A stretch of DNA of 36,733 nt from contig JAPKZJ010000097.1 of assembly GCA_026393855.1 (NCBI GenBank), forward strand, positions 1-36,733. Direction: 5' to 3'. Below, piece by piece: positions 12,441 to 27,935 of the stretch. A program made the position numbers and the translations under genes. How positions within the stretch are numbered: position 1 is the first letter of the stretch; every line of letters starts with the position of its first letter. This DNA comes from Candidatus Aminicenantes bacterium. Lineage in GTDB: Bacteria; Acidobacteriota; Aminicenantia; Aminicenantales; UBA4085. The notes under the pieces were generated by a model. The model was not told the origin of the DNA and did not search any database. It saw only the letters and a program-made list of their open reading frames with translations.

Positions 12441-13130
12441 TTGGATTTGAAGATCAAAGACATCGTCGATCTCCTGCAAATTCCGGAAAAGACGATCCGG
12501 CAGTGGGTCAAGGAAAACAAGATCCCCCACTATATCATTCACCATCAAGTCCGCTTCAACCGGACGGAGATCAACGAATGGATCCTCGACCGGAAGCCGG
12601 AGCTGGCCGCCAACCTCCTGGGGTTGAGCATCGCCGGCCGTCCGACCCGGCTGGCCGACCTCCTGCGCCAGGGCGGCATCCATTACGATCTGCCCGGCCG
12701 GACGGTCATGGAGATCCTGCCGGCGGCCATCGAGGCTATTCGGATGCCCGAGGGCCTATCCCGGCGGGATACCCTGGCCGCCCTGATCGATCGGGAGGAG
12801 CTGATGACGACGGCCATCGGCCGGGGCATCGCCATCCCTCATCCCCGCAACCCCCTCCTCGCCGACGGCGGCGATGCCCGGGTGGCGGTCTGCTTCCTCC
12901 GGGAGCCGGCGGATTTCGGAGCATTGGACGGCCGCCCTGTCCATACGCTGTTCCTCCTGCTGACCGACAGCCCGCGGCGGCATCTCGAGGTCCTGTCCAA
13001 GATCTCCTACCTCTGCCAGATTCCCGCCTTCCTGGCGCTCCTCGAATCCCGCCGTCCGGCCGAGGAGATCTTCGGATTCATCCAGGACCGCGAGCGCGAA
13101 TGGACGAAGCTGGAGGCCGGCCCGCGATGA
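12441..13130 (+). CDS. HTH-PTS EIIA (PtsN-like) fusion regulator
   Basis: The protein has 229 aa. The likely start is TTG at 12441, preceded by GGGG about 8 nt upstream; a second TTG at 12447 is possible and no ATG fits. Residues 1-52 form an excisionase/MerR-like winged helix (IKDIVDLLQIPEKTIRQWVK, then HHQVRFNRTEINEWI). Residues about 85-225 are a PTS EIIA domain of the fructose/nitrogen type with the phosphorylatable histidine in IAIPHPR (His134). It carries no transport domains, so it is a sensor and not a sugar permease part. The domain order suggests DNA binding tuned by PTS phosphorylation. The stop overlaps the start of the HyfB-like gene (ATGA), so the two are translationally coupled. 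I infer that it controls or senses for the membrane complex encoded downstream. Confidence 0.8.
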   Translation: MDLKIKDIVDLLQIPEKTIRQWVKENKIPHYIIHHQVRFNRTEINEWILDRKPELAANLLGLSIAGRPTRLADLLRQGGIHYDLPGRTVMEILPAAIEAIRMPEGLSRRDTLAALIDREELMTTAIGRGIAIPHPRNPLLADGGDARVAVCFLREPADFGALDGRPVHTLFLLLTDSPRRHLEVLSKISYLCQIPAFLALLESRRPAEEIFGFIQDREREWTKLEAGPR

Positions 13131-15106
13131 CCCTGTTTTTGGCCGGGACCGGACTTTTTCTCCTGGCGGGGATCGCCACTCTCTTCGTCGGTCCTTCCCG
13201 CAAAGGCCTGATTTTCGCGGGCGGAGCGGCCGCGGCCCAAGCCCTGCTCCTGCCCGCGGCGATCAAGGTTTTACTGGGGGGGGGCTCTCCGAGCGCGGCG
13301 GTCGAATTCTCGTTCCCCATCGGGCGGGCCGTCCTGCGGCTCGATCCGTTGGCCGCCTTTTTCGTGCTGATCGTCAGCCTGGGCGGTTTCCTGGCGGCGG
13401 TCTATTCGAAAGGGTATATGAAAGCCGAGTCCGGGGACCGGTCTTCGCTCTCGCGCTACTATCTGTTCATGGGACTCCTGATCGCTGCGATGCTGGTGGT
13501 CGTGACGGTCCAGAACGCCCTACTGTTTCTGATCGCCTGGGAAGTCATGTCGCTGGCCTCCTTCTTCCTGGTCGCGCACGAACACGCCAAGGACGAAGTC
13601 CGGCGGGCCGGCGTTTATTATCTCGTGGCCATGCAGGTCGGGGCGGCCTTTCTGATCGCCGCCTTCGTCTGGACCTCCAGCCTCTCCGGCAGTCTGGACT
13701 TCGCTTCGTTCGGCCCGGCCCTGGGCGGAGAGGGCTTGCTTCCGAGCCTTCTGTTCCTGCTGTTCTTCGTCGGATTCGGGACCAAAGCCGGCTTCGTTCC
13801 GTTCCATACCTGGCTGCCGCTGGCTCACCCGGCCGCGCCGACGGGCGTCTCGGCGCTGATGTCCGGGGTGATGATCAAGACCGGCATCTACGGCATCCTG
13901 CGCATCCTTCTCCTGGGCGGCGGCCGGAGCCTCGTCCTGGGCTATATCGTCCTGGCCGTCGGCATCGTATCGGGAATCTACGGGGTGATGAACGCTATCG
14001 CCCAGCACGACCTGAAACGGCTGCTGGCTTACCACAGTATCGAGAACATCGGCCTCATCGGCCTGGGCATCGGGATGGGCATGATCGGGCTGGCCGCCGG
14101 GCAGGAGGGGATCGCCGTGCTGGGGTTTTTCGGGGCGGTTCTCCACACTTTCAACCACTTCACGTTCAAGAGCCTGCTTTTCTACGGAGCCGGCGTCGTC
14201 TATTTAAAGACCCATACCCGGGACATCGACCGGCTGGGCGGGCTTGTCCGTGTCGTGCCGGTCACCTCGGCTCTTTTCCTGGTCGGGTCGCTGGCCATTT
14301 GTGGGCTCCCGCTCTTCAGCGGGTTTATCAGCGAGTTCGCCCTTTATTCCGGACTGATCCGGGGCTTGGCCTCCGGCCCCTTCCCGCGCTTCGCCGCCCT
14401 GGCCGGGTTGGCCGGCTTGGCCTTTATCGGTGTCATGGCCGTCCTTTGCTTCAGCAAGGTGTTCGGCATCGTCTTCCTCGGCTCGCCCCGGAGCGCCCGG
14501 GCCGAAACGCCCGGAGAGGGTTCCGGCTGGCTCGTAACGCCGATGGCCGTCCTGGCGGTCCTCATCGTCTTCGTCGGGATGCTGGCCCCGCTGGTGATCC
14601 CCCTCCTCGGCCCCGTCGTCCGGCCGATCGCCGCCGGGGGCGCGGACGGGGAATGGCTCCGGCTTGTCGACTTGTTCCGCCGCATCGCCCCGGCCTTGGC
14701 CGTCTTCGGCGGTTTGATCGTCTTTTTTATCGCCCTTCGCCGACTCTTGATCGGGACGAAGCCGGTTGCCGTTTTTAAAACCTGGGACTGCGGCTATCAA
14801 GCGGAAAGTCCCCGTTTCCAGTACACCGCCGGATCATTTGCCGCGCCGTTCCTGCGGCTGATCGCGCCGCTCGTCCCTACGCACCAGCACATTGCCCCGC
14901 CGGAAGGGTTGTTTCCCGCGGGGGCGGAGTACCGCAGCCACCCGTTGGACTTGGTCGAGATCCGTCTGATCCGGCCGCTCGTCGGAGTTATCCGTCGATT
15001 CTTGAAGCTCTTCACCTGGATCCAGACGGGACAGACGCAGAATTATATTCTCTACGGGCTGATCTTCCTCATCGTCCTGATCATTTGGATCATCGGAGTC
15101 CGTTGA
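13127..15106 (+). CDS. HyfB-like proton-conducting membrane subunit of Ehr-type complex
   Basis: The protein has 659 aa. It starts at the ATG overlapping the previous stop; the longer frame upstream is a shadow of the regulator gene. This is an antiporter-like (NuoL/M/N, Mrp) subunit with about 14-16 helices. Family marks are WEVMSLASFFLVAHE (conserved Glu in TM5), FGTKAGFVPFHTWLPLAHP followed by PTGVSALMSGVMIKTG (lysine and helix break), and HDLKRLLAYHSIENIG. The C-terminal TWDCGYQ motif, then a long loop and a final helix, is specific to the HyfB/HycC branch. It would move protons or sodium across the membrane, driven by electron transfer in the soluble arm. It is followed without a gap by the NuoH-like gene. 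Confidence 0.88.
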   Translation: MTLFLAGTGLFLLAGIATLFVGPSRKGLIFAGGAAAAQALLLPAAIKVLLGGGSPSAAVEFSFPIGRAVLRLDPLAAFFVLIVSLGGFLAAVYSKGYMKAESGDRSSLSRYYLFMGLLIAAMLVVVTVQNALLFLIAWEVMSLASFFLVAHEHAKDEVRRAGVYYLVAMQVGAAFLIAAFVWTSSLSGSLDFASFGPALGGEGLLPSLLFLLFFVGFGTKAGFVPFHTWLPLAHPAAPTGVSALMSGVMIKTGIYGILRILLLGGGRSLVLGYIVLAVGIVSGIYGVMNAIAQHDLKRLLAYHSIENIGLIGLGIGMGMIGLAAGQEGIAVLGFFGAVLHTFNHFTFKSLLFYGAGVVYLKTHTRDIDRLGGLVRVVPVTSALFLVGSLAICGLPLFSGFISEFALYSGLIRGLASGPFPRFAALAGLAGLAFIGVMAVLCFSKVFGIVFLGSPRSARAETPGEGSGWLVTPMAVLAVLIVFVGMLAPLVIPLLGPVVRPIAAGGADGEWLRLVDLFRRIAPALAVFGGLIVFFIALRRLLIGTKPVAVFKTWDCGYQAESPRFQYTAGSFAAPFLRLIAPLVPTHQHIAPPEGLFPAGAEYRSHPLDLVEIRLIRPLVGVIRRFLKLFTWIQTGQTQNYILYGLIFLIVLIIWIIGVR

Positions 15107-16024
15107 ATGAGCCACCTCCCCGGTTACCTCGTCCTGCTCGCGGCCTCGGTCCTCTTCACCGGCGTCGCGGGCCGGGTCAAAGCCTGGTGGGCCGGCCGTC
15201 GGGGGGCGCCTTTATTACAAGAGGTCTTCGATCTCCGCAAGCTCGTCCGTAAGGGCGAGGTGATCAGCCGGACGACGTCCTTCGTCTTCCGGTTGAACCC
15301 GCCCGTCCAGGTCGCAGCCGTCGCCTTCGCCGCCCTGCTCGTGCCTCTGCCCGGCCAGCCCTCGCTTCTCCATATCCCCGGCGACTTCGTCCTCTTTACT
15401 TATGCCTTCGGCCTGGCCAAGTTCATGGCCGTGATCGCGGCCTTGGACACGGGCAGCAGCTTCGAGGGGATGGGCGCCAGCCGCGAGGCCGCCTTCTCCA
15501 CCCTAGTCGAGCCGGCTTTCTTTATCCTCTTGGGTTCCCTGGCCCTGGTCACCGGCCGGACTTCGTTCGAAGCCATCTTTGCCCGACCCCACTACGGCAT
15601 CGGCAGCGCCGTCCTGGTCAAGGCCCTGGCCGCCTTGTCGTTCTTCATCATGCTCCTCGTGGAAGGATCCCGCGGACCGGTCGATGATCCGACGACCCAT
15701 CTGGAGCTGACCATGATTCACGAAGTCATGATCCTGGACTATTCCGGGCCCGACCTGGCTTTCCTTCTGTACGCGGCCGGGGCCAAGATGGTCCTGTTCG
15801 CCGTGCTGATCGCCGACCTGTTGATCCCCTCGACGATCGGCCCTGCGGCCGGAGCCCTGCTCTTGGGGGCCGCGCTCGGCCTGACGGCAGCGGCCGTCGG
15901 GCTGGTCGAGTCCCTCACCGCCCGAATCCGGATGACCCATGTGCCGCAGTTCGTGTTCCTCCTGACGGCCCTGGCCCTGACGGTGTTCGCCGTCCTCCTG
16001 TTTTCCCTGCGGAGAGGCTTCTGA
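15107..16024 (+). CDS. HyfC/HycD-like (NuoH-type) membrane subunit of Ehr-type complex
   Basis: The protein has 305 aa with about eight transmembrane helices. The ATG at 15107 directly follows the previous TGA. Diagnostic features are an N-terminal KAWWAGRRGAPLLQ segment (ubiquinone-pocket-like arginines) and EGSRGPVDDPTTHLELTMIHE. The latter corresponds to the NuoH loop with conserved acidic residues that join the electron-transfer arm to the ion channels. Its length matches HycD/HyfC. The stop overlaps the next start (TGATG). It acts as the membrane anchor beneath the HyfG- and HyfI-like proteins encoded at the end of the operon. Confidence 0.88.
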   Translation: MSHLPGYLVLLAASVLFTGVAGRVKAWWAGRRGAPLLQEVFDLRKLVRKGEVISRTTSFVFRLNPPVQVAAVAFAALLVPLPGQPSLLHIPGDFVLFTYAFGLAKFMAVIAALDTGSSFEGMGASREAAFSTLVEPAFFILLGSLALVTGRTSFEAIFARPHYGIGSAVLVKALAALSFFIMLLVEGSRGPVDDPTTHLELTMIHEVMILDYSGPDLAFLLYAAGAKMVLFAVLIADLLIPSTIGPAAGALLLGAALGLTAAAVGLVESLTARIRMTHVPQFVFLLTALALTVFAVLLFSLRRGF

Positions 16025-16659
16025 TGTGGGATCTATTCATCATCCTGTTCGGGGCGACCATCCTGTCGCTCTTCGCGGCCAGCCGGATCGAGTCCTTCAT
16101 CCGGGTTTTGGCCCTGCAGGGGCTTCTGCTTTTTTTACTGGTCGTCATCGACCTGCGGACCATCAACTGGCTGAGCATCGCTTTTCTGGTCCTGGAGACG
16201 CTGGTCGTCAAGACCATCGTCATCCCTCTGTTCCTGCTCCGGGTCATCCGGAGAAACGAGATCGGCCGCGAAGTCGATCCGCGCCGGCCCCAGTTCTTCC
16301 GGCTTCTGCTGGGCGGGTCGGTCTTCCTGTTCGGGTTCCTGGCCGCATCCTGGGCCGCCAAGACCGGCCCCATCGAGCAGCCGCTCTACTTCGGGATGTC
16401 CATCTCGATGATGATCGCCAGCCTGTTCCTGATCGTCGAGCGGCGCCGGATCATCCTCCATATTCTCTCCTTCATCACTTTGGAGAACGGCATTTTTCTC
16501 CTGTCCCTCTCGGTGGCCCACGAGATGCCCATGCTGATCAACCTGGGGGTTCTGCTGGACCTCTTCGTCGGCGTCTTTCTGCTGGTCCTCTTCTTTAATA
16601 CGATTCAGTCTCTGTACGACGGCGGGACGATCGACGTCCTGTCCAAGCTGAAGGATTGA
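16024..16659 (+). CDS. HyfE-like (NuoK-related) membrane subunit of Ehr-type complex
   Basis: The protein has 211 aa with six to seven helices and starts inside the previous stop (TGATG). HyfE proteins combine a NuoK-like core with extra helices, which fits this length. Visible family features include VLETLVVKTIVIPLFLLRVI near residues 57-76, with a glutamate and a lysine inside the membrane segment. SFITLENGIFLLSLS near residues 150-165 carries the typical NuoK-like in-membrane Glu. It belongs to the ion-translocating module between the HyfC- and HyfF-like subunits. No oddities are seen. Confidence 0.82.
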   Translation: MWDLFIILFGATILSLFAASRIESFIRVLALQGLLLFLLVVIDLRTINWLSIAFLVLETLVVKTIVIPLFLLRVIRRNEIGREVDPRRPQFFRLLLGGSVFLFGFLAASWAAKTGPIEQPLYFGMSISMMIASLFLIVERRRIILHILSFITLENGIFLLSLSVAHEMPMLINLGVLLDLFVGVFLLVLFFNTIQSLYDGGTIDVLSKLKD

Positions 16660-16660
16660 C

Positions 16661-18088
16661 ATGGCCCCGCTACTGATCGCCCTTCCGCTCGGCCTCGGCG
16701 CGCTGGCCTGGATCGCCCGCGACCGCCGGATCAGCCGGGCGGCTCTGCTGGGGACAGCGGCGGTCTTCCTGGCGGCGGTCGCCGCCTGGTGGGCCGGCGC
16801 CGGCCGCGGCGATAGCGGGGGAGGCCTGGCCGCCTACCTGTCGGTGGACGCAATCGGACTGGTCTTCCTGACGATCATGGCCCTAGTCTTCGCGGCGGCC
16901 GCCGTGGCCAGCCTGGCCTATTTCAAGGAACAGGGCTTGTCCCCCCGGCGCGAGGCCGCCTACACGGCCCAGCTCCTGTTTTTTGCGGCGGCCATGGCGG
17001 GCGTCATGCTGGCCCGCCATCTGGCGCTCTTCTGGGTTCTCCTCGAGGCGACGACACTGACCAGCGCCCTGCTGATCTACTTCGAAAAGAAGAAGTCCTC
17101 GTTGGAGGCCGCCTGGAAATATGTCTTCATCTGCTCCGTGGGGATCGCCCTGGCGTTCGTCGGGATCATCATCCTCACGGTGGGGAGCCGGGGCATCAAC
17201 TCCCTGTTCTTCACCGAGCTGGCCCGCCGGGCGGGCGAGATCAATCCCTTCTGGCTGAAGATGGCCTTCGCCTTCATCCTGGTCGGCTTCGGGACCAAGA
17301 TCGGCGTGGCCCCGATTCACGCCTGGCTGCCGGACGCCCACTCCGAGGCGCCCGCGCCGGTCTCGGCCCTGCTTTCGGGCGCCTTGTTGAACTCTTCGTT
17401 CCTGGGGCTTGTCCGGTTCCAGGCGATCATGATCCGGGCCGGATTGGGGGGCTTCTCCGATTTCCTTCTCATTCTGACCGGCTTTCTCTCCCTCGTGGTG
17501 GCGGCCGCGTTCCTGCTCCAGACCGTCAATTACAAACGGATGCTGGCCTATTCCTCGATCGAAAACATGGGCATCCTCTTCCTGGGCTTGGCCTTCGGTC
17601 CGGCTGGGTTTTTCGCCGCGCTCCTCCACAGCGCGGCCCATTCCCTGGCCAAGGCTTCGCTGTTCCTGACCTCGGGGGAGATCCTGCGCCTGTATGGCAG
17701 CAAGCGGATCGACGATGTCCGGGGCTTGTTGCGGAGGGAGCCCCGGATCGGCTGGGTCTGGATCGTCTCGTTCCTGGCCGTCGCCGGCTTCCCCCCGTTT
17801 CCCGCGTTTTTGAGCAAGATTCTTTTGATCGGCGCCTTCTTCGCCGCCGGTTCCGGCTGGCTGACCGGCCCGTTCCTGGCCCTGATCGTGGTGATCGTCT
17901 TCGGCATGGGCGGCGCCGTCTTCCGCATGGCCTTCGGCGAACCGCCGGCGCCGGCCGCGGCGGAGCGATCCGGCCTTCTGTCCTACGGGCCGCAAGTCCT
18001 TCTGCTCATCCTGCTTTTAGCGATCGGCCTGTCCATCCCGGCGAAAGTTTTGGCGCTCATGAGGGAGGCGGTCGGTCTTTTGAACTGA
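16661..18088 (+). CDS. HyfF-like antiporter-type membrane subunit of Ehr-type complex
   Basis: The protein has 475 aa with about 14 helices, and its ATG lies 1 nt after the previous stop with AAGGA upstream. It is a second NuoL/M/N-type subunit. LFWVLLEATTLTSALLIYFE carries the TM5 glutamate. FGTKIGVAPIHAWLPDAH followed by APAPVSALLSGALLN is the broken helix with a lysine and histidine. NYKRMLAYSSIENMG is the family signature in the later half. Together with the HyfB-like subunit, the complex thus has two predicted pumping channels, more than the single one in minimal group 4 hydrogenases. Confidence 0.86.
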   Translation: MAPLLIALPLGLGALAWIARDRRISRAALLGTAAVFLAAVAAWWAGAGRGDSGGGLAAYLSVDAIGLVFLTIMALVFAAAAVASLAYFKEQGLSPRREAAYTAQLLFFAAAMAGVMLARHLALFWVLLEATTLTSALLIYFEKKKSSLEAAWKYVFICSVGIALAFVGIIILTVGSRGINSLFFTELARRAGEINPFWLKMAFAFILVGFGTKIGVAPIHAWLPDAHSEAPAPVSALLSGALLNSSFLGLVRFQAIMIRAGLGGFSDFLLILTGFLSLVVAAAFLLQTVNYKRMLAYSSIENMGILFLGLAFGPAGFFAALLHSAAHSLAKASLFLTSGEILRLYGSKRIDDVRGLLRREPRIGWVWIVSFLAVAGFPPFPAFLSKILLIGAFFAAGSGWLTGPFLALIVVIVFGMGGAVFRMAFGEPPAPAAAERSGLLSYGPQVLLLILLLAIGLSIPAKVLALMREAVGLLN

Positions 18089-18100
18089 CCGGAGATGAAT

Positions 18101-19591
18101 ATGGCGACAAGCGCGGCGTTCAAGAATCTTCAGCCCGTACCCGTGACGGAGATCCCCCGGCTGTCGCCGGCCGAGTTCCGGCGCGCGATGGTCGAAGATG
18201 CGGAGGCGGGCCGCCGGATCGTCCTCTTCTTCGGCGATCGCGAGCCGGCCGGCGTCACCCTGACCGCCGTTCTGGCGGATGACGATCGATCGCGGCTGTT
18301 CGCGGCCTCGACCTGCGTGGGAAGCGAAGCCCGGTATCCGGCGATCACGCCCGACGTCCCGGCGTTTCATTTGTTCGAGCGTGAGGTCTACGAAGAGTTC
18401 GGCCTGGAGCCGGTCGGCCATCCCTGGCTGAAGCCGGTCCGCCGCGGCATCGCCGGAATCAATCCCGCCGAAGCGCCCACCGCTTTCTTCCGAATGGAGG
18501 GCGACGAGGTGCACGAAGTCGGCGTCGGCCCGATTCACGCCGGGGTCATCGAGCCCGGCCATTTTCGCTTCTCCTGCCAGGGCGAGGATGTCCACCACCT
18601 CGAAATTCAGCTCGGCTTCCAGCATCGAGGCGTGGAGAATCTCTTCCTGCGGCGGCGCGACCATCCGGCTTTTCTCCTGCGGTTGGCCGAGTCGATCGCG
18701 GGCGACAGCGTCATCGGCCATGCCGGCGCCTTCGCCGGGGCCACGGAAGCCCTCGGCCGCATCCTCCCCGCCCGGCGGGCCCTGATGATTCGCGTCATCG
18801 CCCAGGAATTGGAGCGCATCGGCATCCATCTCGGGGACTTGGCGGCCCTGGCCGGCGACGTCGCCTATCTGACCGGGCAGTCCGTATACGGGGCCCTGCG
18901 GACCAAGATCATCAACACGACCCTGGCCCTCTGCGGCAGCCGTTTCGGCCGCGGCCTGATCGCGGTCGGCGGAGTCCGATTCGACGTGACCCCGGAAGGG
19001 CGGGCCGCGGTCCGGTCCGTCCTCGAGGAGGTCGAAGAAGGCGCGCGGCTGGCGTCCGCCGTCCTCTTCGGGTCCGGGTCGGTTCTGGCCCGCTTCGAGA
19101 AGGCCGGGATCGTGTATCCGGAAACGGCCCGGCAAATCGGTCTGGTGGGGCCGGCGGCCCGGGCCAGCGGGTTGGCTCGGGACGTTCGTTCGGACCATCC
19201 CTACGGCGGATATGCGTACTTTCCCGTCCATAAGATGACCCTGACCTCGGGCGATGTCTTCGCCCGGGCATATATCCGCTCGGTCGAGATCGCCCAGTCC
19301 ATCCGTCTCGTCCGTGAGCAGATCGATCTCCTGCCCGAAGGGGATCTCCTCCATCCTCCGGGCCCTCCGGCGGCCGGGCATCTCGTCGTCTCCCTGGCCG
19401 AGGGCTGGCGGGGCGAGATCGCCCATGCGGCGGTCACGGATGACGAAGGCCGCCTGAAGCGCTATAAGATCAAGGACCCGTCGTTCCACAACTGGTTCGG
19501 GCTGGCTATGGCCGTCCGGAAGAACGGGATCTCGGACTTCCCCATCTGCAATAAAAGCTTCAACTTGTCCTATTGCGGATTCGACCTATGA
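18101..19591 (+). CDS. HyfG-like large subunit (NuoC-NuoD fusion) lacking [NiFe] cysteines
   Basis: The protein has 496 aa. GGAG at 18091-18094 has correct spacing to the ATG at 18101; the ATG at 18095 is too close. Residues 1-115 are a NuoC/30-kDa-like domain (FHLFEREVYEEFGL, then GHPWLKPVRRG). Residues 150-496 are the hydrogenase/NuoD-like large subunit (HHLEIQLGFQHRGVE). In [NiFe] enzymes an ERxCGxC motif and a C-terminal DPCxxC bind nickel. Here the first reads AESIAGDSVIGH (Cys to Ala and Ser), and the C-terminus reads SFNLSYCGFDL (NLSYCG in place of DPCxxC). The metal centre therefore cannot form in the known way. This is the mark of Ehr complexes, which are related to group 4 hydrogenases and complex I but whose substrate is not established. 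No C-terminal extension for protease maturation is present, and no hyp maturation genes are seen in the window. Confidence 0.88.
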   Translation: MATSAAFKNLQPVPVTEIPRLSPAEFRRAMVEDAEAGRRIVLFFGDREPAGVTLTAVLADDDRSRLFAASTCVGSEARYPAITPDVPAFHLFEREVYEEFGLEPVGHPWLKPVRRGIAGINPAEAPTAFFRMEGDEVHEVGVGPIHAGVIEPGHFRFSCQGEDVHHLEIQLGFQHRGVENLFLRRRDHPAFLLRLAESIAGDSVIGHAGAFAGATEALGRILPARRALMIRVIAQELERIGIHLGDLAALAGDVAYLTGQSVYGALRTKIINTTLALCGSRFGRGLIAVGGVRFDVTPEGRAAVRSVLEEVEEGARLASAVLFGSGSVLARFEKAGIVYPETARQIGLVGPAARASGLARDVRSDHPYGGYAYFPVHKMTLTSGDVFARAYIRSVEIAQSIRLVREQIDLLPEGDLLHPPGPPAAGHLVVSLAEGWRGEIAHAAVTDDEGRLKRYKIKDPSFHNWFGLAMAVRKNGISDFPICNKSFNLSYCGFDL

Positions 19592-19610
19592 CCGCCGCAG
19601 CGGGAGAATC

Positions 19611-20369
19611 ATGCTCGACCTGTTGAAATTGAGGAAACGGCACGGGCGTCCCGTGATCAAGGACCTCCGGCGGGCGGAGGTGAAAGCCCCCTTCCGCGGC
19701 TTTCCACTCCTGCGGGAAGGGGCCTGTCCCGATGGCTGTGATCAATGCCTGCGAGCTTGCCCGACGGGCGCCCTGTCGATTCGTCCGCTGCGGCTCGACC
19801 TCGGTGCCTGCCTGTTTTGCGGCGATTGCGAAACGGCTTGCCCGGCCGGGATGGTGCGTTCCACTCCCGCCCACCGTCTGGGAGCCTCGAAGCGCGAGAC
19901 TCTGCGGATCGGGCCCGGGGAGACGGCCGCCTCCTTTGCCGCTAAGGCCATCGGATCCCGACGGGAGATCCGCCGGCTCTTCGGCCGCTCTCTCAAGCTT
20001 CGCCAGGTCTCGGCCGCCGGATGCAACGGCTGTGAGATGGAGCTGGGCGCCTGCGGTAACGTCAACTTCGATATGGGCCGGTTCGGTGTGGACTTCGTCG
20101 CCTCGCCCCGACACGCGGACGGCCTGGTGTTGACGGGACCGATCTCGCGCAACATGTCTCCGGCCCTGAAGGACGCCTATCGAAGCTTGGGAACGCCTCG
20201 GGTCGTGGTCGCCGCGGGAGCGTGCGCCATCCACGGCGGTTTGTTCGCCGAGAGCGTCGATCTCGACCGCTCGTTTCTGGCCGAGACACCCATCGATCTC
20301 TTCGTTCCCGGCTGTCCTCCGCATCCCCTGACTTTCATCCGGGCCGTGCTCGATTTCCTGGGACGTTGA
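19611..20369 (+). CDS. HyfI/NuoB-like small subunit fused to a 2[4Fe-4S] ferredoxin domain
   Basis: The protein has 252 aa. The ATG at 19611 follows CGGGAG. The N-terminal part is a NuoI/HyfH-like ferredoxin with two clusters: C39, C43, C46, C50 and C67, C70, C73, C77, each ending in CP. The first has an unusual CxxxCxxCxxxCP spacing. The C-terminal part (about residues 128-252) is the NuoB/HycG-type small subunit with all four ligands of the N2-like cluster: C138 and C141 in AAGCNGCEMEL, C205 in GACAIHGG, and C235 in PGCPPHP. The electron-transfer chain is thus intact although the large subunit has no nickel site. The fusion replaces the separate HyfH and HyfI subunits. Last gene of the operon. 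Confidence 0.86.
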   Translation: MLDLLKLRKRHGRPVIKDLRRAEVKAPFRGFPLLREGACPDGCDQCLRACPTGALSIRPLRLDLGACLFCGDCETACPAGMVRSTPAHRLGASKRETLRIGPGETAASFAAKAIGSRREIRRLFGRSLKLRQVSAAGCNGCEMELGACGNVNFDMGRFGVDFVASPRHADGLVLTGPISRNMSPALKDAYRSLGTPRVVVAAGACAIHGGLFAESVDLDRSFLAETPIDLFVPGCPPHPLTFIRAVLDFLGR

Positions 20370-27269: not shown

Positions 27270-27935
27270 CTATTTCGGGAATTCGTTCTTAGGGCCGGGT
27301 TTTCTTTTTACCATAGGCAGCCCGGTCATTTCTTCGAGCCCTTGGAGAAATTTCTCACTTCCAAGCGGAAGCCCGTTCTTCGCATGAACGCGGAACTCCT
27401 CAAGGGTACTATTGGGGAGAGCTGACTCTAAATAGGCCTCCCAGTTGGAAATGCTAGTGTCTAATGGCGAAGTCCGCAGAAGTGGATCAAAGGACTTGTC
27501 GATATGCGCTCTTGCGCTTGAAAAATCCCAATCTCGCGCGTTACGGACGAGCTTGGCTCTTACGGGATTTGTTTCGATATATCTGATGGAATTGTATAGA
27601 TAACTCTCATCCATTGGAAACGAAGAGAATCTTCCCTGCCATAAAAAGCCCTTCCATTTGTTCCTTGCGTTTATTGTTTTTGTGTAAAATTTGTGCGTAT
27701 TGCCGAAAGTCCGAGCCAACCCCGCTTCATCCGAAGGAACGGCAACCAAATGCACGTGATTATCCATAATGCAGTATGCCCAAAACGCGACTTTGGCCTC
27801 TTCTGAATATTTTTTCAGCAGCCTAAGATAGAACGCCTTATCCTCATCATCAAAAAATACCCTCTGCCTTCGGTTCCCTCGTTGAGTAATATGATGAGGT
27901 AGATCCGGAATCACTATTCTTGCATAGGCGGGCAT
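27270..27935 (-). CDS. REP-associated tyrosine transposase (RAYT, Y1_Tnp family)
   Basis: The protein has 221 aa. The start at 27935 is supported by GGGGAG about 9 nt upstream. Y1-type single-strand transposase features are LPHHITQRGNRRQ at the N-terminus, the metal-binding HxH motif in DNHVHLV (H60 and H62), and a candidate catalytic tyrosine in HKFYTKTIN (Y84). The downstream GRFSSFPMDESYLYNSIRYIETNPVRA block is characteristic of RAYT proteins. The family cuts and joins single-stranded DNA at REP hairpins. The base composition and codon use are plainly more AT-rich than in all neighbours, which suggests recent acquisition. The frame is intact with no visible decay, so the enzyme may be active. 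Confidence 0.9.
   Translation of the reverse strand: MPAYARIVIPDLPHHITQRGNRRQRVFFDDEDKAFYLRLLKKYSEEAKVAFWAYCIMDNHVHLVAVPSDEAGLARTFGNTHKFYTKTINARNKWKGFLWQGRFSSFPMDESYLYNSIRYIETNPVRAKLVRNARDWDFSSARAHIDKSFDPLLRTSPLDTSISNWEAYLESALPNSTLEEFRVHAKNGLPLGSEKFLQGLEEMTGLPMVKRKPGPKNEFPK

Follow-up and report, generated by a model that had tools for sequence, protein, structure and literature searches.

What does an Ehr complex do for its cell, and when does the cell want it? This question is raised by a locus in a 36,733-nucleotide stretch of DNA from a Candidatus Aminicenantes bacterium (phylum Acidobacteriota), one contig (number 97) of an assembly that measures 3.68 Mb and is 95% complete; we call the whole stretch the window. 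Seven head-to-tail genes occupy positions 12441-20369 of its forward strand, namely a gene for a fused helix-turn-helix and phosphotransferase system (PTS) EIIA protein (HTH-EIIA), followed by hyfB, hyfC, hyfE, hyfF, hyfG and hyfI. Ehr (energy-converting or Ech hydrogenase-related) complexes are reportedly known from Geobacter as EhrA-EhrL-EhrS, in work by Coppi in 2005 and Marreiros in 2013. They would be membrane-bound, ion-translocating oxidoreductases of the complex I and group 4 hydrogenase superfamily that make no hydrogen. We consider it reasonably probable that the operon encodes an Ehr complex acting as a ferredoxin-driven ion pump, and that it is controlled by PTS phosphorylation. 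If true, this would couple a redox-driven ion pump from the complex I superfamily to the carbon status of glycolysis.

The six hyf genes span 13127-20369 with intergenic spacings of -1 to +19 nt, and family searches (Pfam, NCBIfam) matched their products to the expected families. The complete, closely packed set, in the order given by a first-pass annotation made from the sequence alone, was thus recovered. The interval assigned to it, 12441-20369, does contain all six hyf genes, but the annotation overlooked that a seventh gene, HTH-EIIA, starts at 12441; hyfB begins at 13127, and its start overlaps the end of the EIIA gene by 4 nt (ATGA).

We aligned the large subunit HyfG with E. coli HycE and HyfG (DRVCGICGFAH ... 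LDPCYSCTDR). The positions of the four [NiFe] cysteines C1 to C4 are taken by A202, S205, S492 and G495, and HyfG has neither the ERxCGxC nor the DPCxxC ligands of a group 4 [NiFe] hydrogenase. Both replacement motifs quoted in the first-pass annotation were located, and the loss of all four ligands that it had noticed is real. A single cysteine, Cys494, is offset by one position and falls between those of C3 and C4. HycE carries a cleaved extension beyond DPCYSCTDR. The HyfG chain stops at the C4 region (...NLSYCGFDL) and has no C-terminal processing peptide. Like replacements, together with the Ehr-specific motif GD[S/T], were found in more than 100 homologues from about 18 phyla. Because the pattern recurs in so many sequences, it is neither chance nor sequencing error, the latter being the objection that the annotation had itself raised. 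G203, D204 and S492 are invariant in 36/36 aligned Ehr sequences, and the tail of the family bears the signature NKSFxLSYxGxD. A lone C1 cysteine is kept, as CGD[S/T], in Gastranaerophilales and one acidobacterial family. The AlphaFold2 (AF2) model of HyfG, predicted like all our models as a single chain, reached a pLDDT of 90 and matched best the fold of HycE from formate hydrogenlyase (FHL; 7z0s_E), then E. coli NuoCD. Its pocket loop 147-152 and tail 494-498 had pLDDT values below 50, as expected of mobile loops.

In a tree of 105 sequences, HyfG of the window falls within a 91-row nickel-free Ehr clade (SH-aLRT 98; 81-row core 100). The cysteine-bearing hydrogenases encoded in the same genome are separate from this clade, as are E. 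coli HycE, HyfG and NuoCD. The assignment to Ehr, and not to a cysteine-containing hydrogenase clade, is thereby borne out. With its Hyf subunit set in one operon, its missing nickel cysteines, its place in the nickel-free clade and its intact Fe-S and channel residues, the complex is an unremarkable representative of Ehr, a family already known; what may be new is its regulatory link. The nearest HyfG relatives in the tree are from Ignavibacteriales and Bacteroidetes, not from other acidobacteria, and a close Ehr is absent from four other sampled genomes of the window's order and from the sampled genomes of its class. Horizontal transfer is the likely reason for this placement and distribution. 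Two large subunits of other acidobacteria (L064 and L068, on G098 C166 and G005 C61) combine the NKSF tail with all four intact [NiFe] cysteines and lie outside the nickel-free clade; they are possible intermediates between hydrogenase and Ehr. The annotation had also proposed a search for hyp maturation genes. HypD is indeed present in the genome, but this is uninformative on Ehr because the genome also encodes two large subunits with intact nickel motifs (contigs C71 and C37).

The electron relay and the ion channels are kept, as the annotation had stated. In HyfI, two [4Fe-4S] clusters are served by eight cysteines and a hydrogenase-like proximal cluster by four (C138, C141, C205, C235), and all 12 are conserved in most of 99 sequences. 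Alignments revealed the retained channel residues E148, K229, K306, H349, H353, K357 and E412 in HyfB (alignment numbering), E135, D193 and E200 in HyfC, K63, E154 and D179 in HyfE, and E129, K153, K213, K292 and K331 in HyfF. HyfC, whose best PDB relatives are FHL subunit 4 and Mbh13, also carries the Ehr-specific H198 and H205, which are invariant in 94/94 sequences and replaced by other residues in hydrogenase and complex I. We infer that electrons flow from a reduced carrier, most likely ferredoxin, to the two [4Fe-4S] clusters of HyfI and on to the proximal cluster. The latter would face the emptied nickel pocket of HyfG (lined by S492, the conserved R439 and A202-G203-D204-S205); a small acceptor would be reduced there, and the released energy would drive H+ or Na+ through HyfC, HyfF and HyfB.

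This conservation bears on the proposal that Ehr is a non-functional hydrogenase remnant under neutral drift. Ehr is widespread and its reaction is unsettled, and one recent paper has called the Geobacter complex nonfunctional (PMC13194489). The catalytic cysteines are lost, and long-term Geobacter cultures carried mutations in ehr genes. However, more than 60 residues are invariant across the 36 HyfG sequences from many phyla, channel and Fe-S residues are likewise invariant, and Ehr is expressed at the protein level in Geobacter (PMC7894505). The label is contradicted by the conservation, which says that Ehr works, and we regard drift as extremely improbable.

The first gene of the operon provides the first handle found on when cells want an Ehr pump. 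Its product matches HTH_17 (PF12728) with 47.7 bits against a cut-off of 27 and PTS EIIA_2 (PF00359) with 73.9 bits, also above cut-off. The AF2 model (pLDDT 89) matched best the IIA-Ntr structures 3urr, 2a0j and 1a6j in Foldseek, and the protein has the EIIA fold together with a putative phosphorylation site, His134 (GIAIPH), and a second conserved histidine, His181. An HTH-EIIA homologue lies in the Ehr operon of 44/80 loci from at least 11 phyla, which is 44/63 of the loci with upstream DNA covered. The phospho-acceptor histidine is kept in 52/54 and the second histidine in 53/54 of the sequences, and HTH_17 was detected in 29/30 homologues. Geobacteraceae carry the gene as well. In a survey of 149 genomes from the phylum, a strong HTH-EIIA match was seen in 14, every one of which belongs to the 28 with a close Ehr (Fisher p 2e-12); three of these 14 genes, on separate contigs, flank hyfB at contig breaks. 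Genome G110, whose match is to the EIIA part alone and adjoins complex I genes, was left out of the 14. Regulator distances track HyfG distances in a mirror-tree comparison (r 0.59; permutations reached at most 0.26), although more loosely than those of core subunits do (0.82-0.90). Consistent with these data, the HTH-EIIA protein probably switches the Ehr complex on and off.

An open search for k-mers and dyads upstream of the regulator picked out GACA-N6-GACA, present in 15 regions; no dyad in shuffled sequence reached more than 8. The candidate operator RGACA-N5-RGACA stands no more than 150 nt upstream of HTH-EIIA in 14/51 loci, among them L079, L080, L107, L108 and L131, with four occurrences elsewhere in the same loci and 0/19 in loci without the regulator. 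The repeat is found in both orientations, has a 10-bp period and is about 450 times as dense as in the rest of the same loci; spacings of 3, 4, 6, 7 and 15 gave 0-1 upstream matches each. Direct repeats one helical turn apart suit HTH proteins of the BldC kind. No shared inverted repeats were found upstream of the operon, and a promoter scan found nothing. As an even bet, we suggest that in many phyla a PTS phosphorelay controls Ehr pumps, with HTH-EIIA sensing the PEP/pyruvate (phosphoenolpyruvate/pyruvate) ratio through His134, binding the tandem RGACA repeats and setting expression.

Alternatively, HTH-EIIA might act on the Ehr complex itself and not on DNA, in the way that IIA-Ntr, when unphosphorylated, acts on YcgO, a K+/H+ antiporter of E. 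coli. IIA-Ntr is known to control ion transporters by direct binding, and ptsN is located in kdp operons (PMC13104625). The gene usually stands before hyfB, and elsewhere between hyfB and hyfC, between two hyfB copies, before hyfG, or, in L157, even between hyfF and hyfG, and such varied positions would fit direct action. The HTH domain, retained in nearly all homologues, and the direct-repeat element upstream of the gene argue against it, and we consider direct action doubtful. For control at the DNA level, enzyme I (EI) and HPr would phosphorylate His134 in step with the PEP/pyruvate ratio, and the HTH domain would then raise or lower expression of the operon, the HTH-EIIA gene included. On C24 the genome of the window carries HPr and EI genes side by side, with an open reading frame resembling RpoN nearby; a second HPr-EI-EIIA protein is encoded beside an EIIC on C112. 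Since genes for HPr and EI are present, phosphorylation of His134 in this organism is possible. We found no paper linking a PTS EIIA with Ehr, nor any description of a linked HTH-EIIA gene, in a search outside which the founding Ehr papers (Coppi 2005, Marreiros 2013) lay; the word hydrogenase does not occur in a 2026 review of the nitrogen PTS (PMC13104625).

Which partner feeds or drains the complex? That the electron acceptor of Ehr is not settled, as the annotation had stated, agrees with the literature (PMC10284858, PMC6349859). A formate dehydrogenase (FDH) docked on Ehr and driving ion pumping has been proposed for Riflemargulisbacteria, Saganbacteria and Geobacter (PMC6349859, PMC7894505). 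Geobacter Ehr subunits were more abundant on formate than in hydrogen-containing conditions (PMC7894505), and in the genome of the window the molybdopterin oxidoreductase family is matched six times, once beside a complex I NuoD match on C61. On the contrary, the window operon contains no FDH gene, none is conserved across 80 Ehr neighbourhoods, and molybdopterin oxidoreductase (PF00384) was not found in 13/15 Ehr genomes tested, comprising 12/12 of the Melainabacteria type and one spirochaete. Incompleteness of metagenome-assembled genomes is a caveat here, although 13/13 absences by chance were judged unlikely. This absence speaks against FDH as a general partner, is compatible with ferredoxin and narrows the search for the partner enzyme. 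As a general rule the FDH proposal is refuted, unless those genomes are badly incomplete, and for the operon studied here we hold it to be improbable. POR-type 2-oxoacid:ferredoxin oxidoreductases occur in 15/15 of the tested genomes, and ferredoxin is the most likely donor.

Pyrococcus MBS and MBX are a precedent for loss of the nickel site with the proximal cluster as catalyst. Ehr might accordingly have taken the same evolutionary step, nickel site lost and proximal cluster kept, toward a sulfane-sulfur or disulfide reductase. However, no sulfur-metabolism gene is conserved in the 80 neighbourhoods, and in a PDB search the window sequence was closer to FHL and MBH than to MBX (6u8y), which leaves sulfur reduction a slim prospect.

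Some findings weigh against a ferredoxin-driven pump under PTS control. The support for ferredoxin is the co-occurrence of a common enzyme. His38 and Tyr87 of the complex I quinone site (Thermus numbering) have no counterpart in HyfG, where I152 and G203 stand instead. The regulator is missing from 19/63 Ehr loci and therefore dispensable for Ehr activity, and the upstream region of the window operon has no significant match to the candidate operator (p about 0.5).

The two quinone-site residues also bear on the idea that Ehr is a quinone reductase, a complex I that lacks the NADH module and takes quinone into the former nickel pocket. The HyfG fold match to NuoCD and the complex I-like channel residues would fit this, as would Ehr in Geobacteraceae such as Geomonas, which respire. 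Yet these residues are absent, and Ehr also occurs in Melainabacteria in which a MqnA/D search did not find the futalosine pathway and a UbiA search found prenyltransferases that are weakly MenA-like. The UbiA gene of the window itself is of the decaprenyl-phosphate phosphoribosyltransferase type. We judge a quinone reductase unlikely, and keep ferredoxin-driven pumping under PTS control as the preferred reading.

Compared to known systems, the window complex shares with other Ehr complexes the Hyf-type subunits B, C, E, F, G and I, the missing nickel-ligating cysteines, the Fe-S clusters and the antiporter subunits. Nothing essential differs; the window has a single hyfB, while Geobacteraceae and several other lineages have two. 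With E. coli FHL and hydrogenase 4 (Hyc, Hyf) it has subunit order and folds in common, HycE being the best PDB match of HyfG, but it lacks the nickel site, the processing peptide, FDH and HyfA/HyfD, and a HyfH-like domain is fused to HyfI. The NuoL/M/H/CD/B folds and channel residues are those of complex I; family searches did not find NuoEFG (the NADH module) in the window operon, the proximal cluster has a hydrogenase-like CxxC where complex I has a tandem CC, and the quinone-site His/Tyr pair is missing. HTH-EIIA shares the EIIA fold and phosphorylatable histidine with IIA-Ntr (PtsN), but is fused to an excisionase-type HTH and, with a score of 55.7, falls short of the PtsN equivalog cut-off (138.7). 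BldC and MerR-like regulators bind direct repeats; the window protein has the same HTH_17 type, and upstream in its relatives lie tandem direct repeats spaced by one helical turn, but it differs by the attached EIIA sensor domain, and its DNA binding is putative. The features of the operon are compiled in the table.

Table. Genes and motifs of the Ehr operon in the window.
Feature	Position	Strand	Basis
HTH_17 (excisionase/MerR-type) and PTS EIIA_2 (IIA-Ntr-like) fusion, 229 aa, TTG start, first gene of the operon	12441..13130	+	PF12728, PF00359, AF2, Foldseek
HyfB-like antiporter subunit (NuoL/MrpA-type)	13127..15106	+	family searches, residue alignment
HyfC-like (NuoH-type) subunit	15107..16024	+	PF00146; PDB relatives; conservation
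HyfE-like membrane subunit	16024..16659	+	NCBIfam hydrogenase 4 membrane subunit, 44 bits, below its cut-off; residue conservation
HyfF-like antiporter subunit	16661..18088	+	family searches, residue alignment
HyfG-like large subunit, fused 30 kDa and 49 kDa domains, without the four [NiFe] cysteines	18095..19591	+	PF00346, PF00329; alignments; tree; AF2
HyfG former C1/C2 motif AESIAGDSVIGH, residues 198-209	18686..18721	+	alignment
HyfG former C3/C4 motif SFNLSYCGFDL, residues 488-498, C-terminus	19556..19588	+	alignment
HyfI/NuoB-like small subunit, N-terminal 2x[4Fe-4S] ferredoxin domain and hydrogenase-like proximal cluster	19611..20369	+	PF01058, Fer4_7

Besides HTH-EIIA, no conserved neighbour was found across the 80 Ehr neighbourhoods beyond scattered matches, except a SulP-family anion permease (Sulfate_transp and STAS), which adjoins the operon in 6 loci (for example L116:3-1772), in 4/6 on the same strand. 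Two hyfB genes are present in the Ehr operons of L050, L051, L053, L057, L127, L134 and others, which brings the antiporter-like subunits to three, the number in complex I. L038, on a Variovorax plasmid, and L152, from Verrucomicrobia, each have two different Ehr operons in tandem on one replicon, and genes for spermidine synthase, a universal stress protein and HPr lie near betaproteobacterial Ehr operons (L038, L040). In another acidobacterium (L178, G110 C134) the final antiporter gene of a complex I operon is directly followed by an EIIA gene, and in the window's own genome a protein with a KdpD-like start and a C-terminal EIIA domain (L170:3095-4750, contig C9) may likewise connect the PTS to ion transport. 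Finally, an IS200-type (Y1) transposase-like protein is encoded at 27270-27935 of the window, between the UbiA-family gene and recO.

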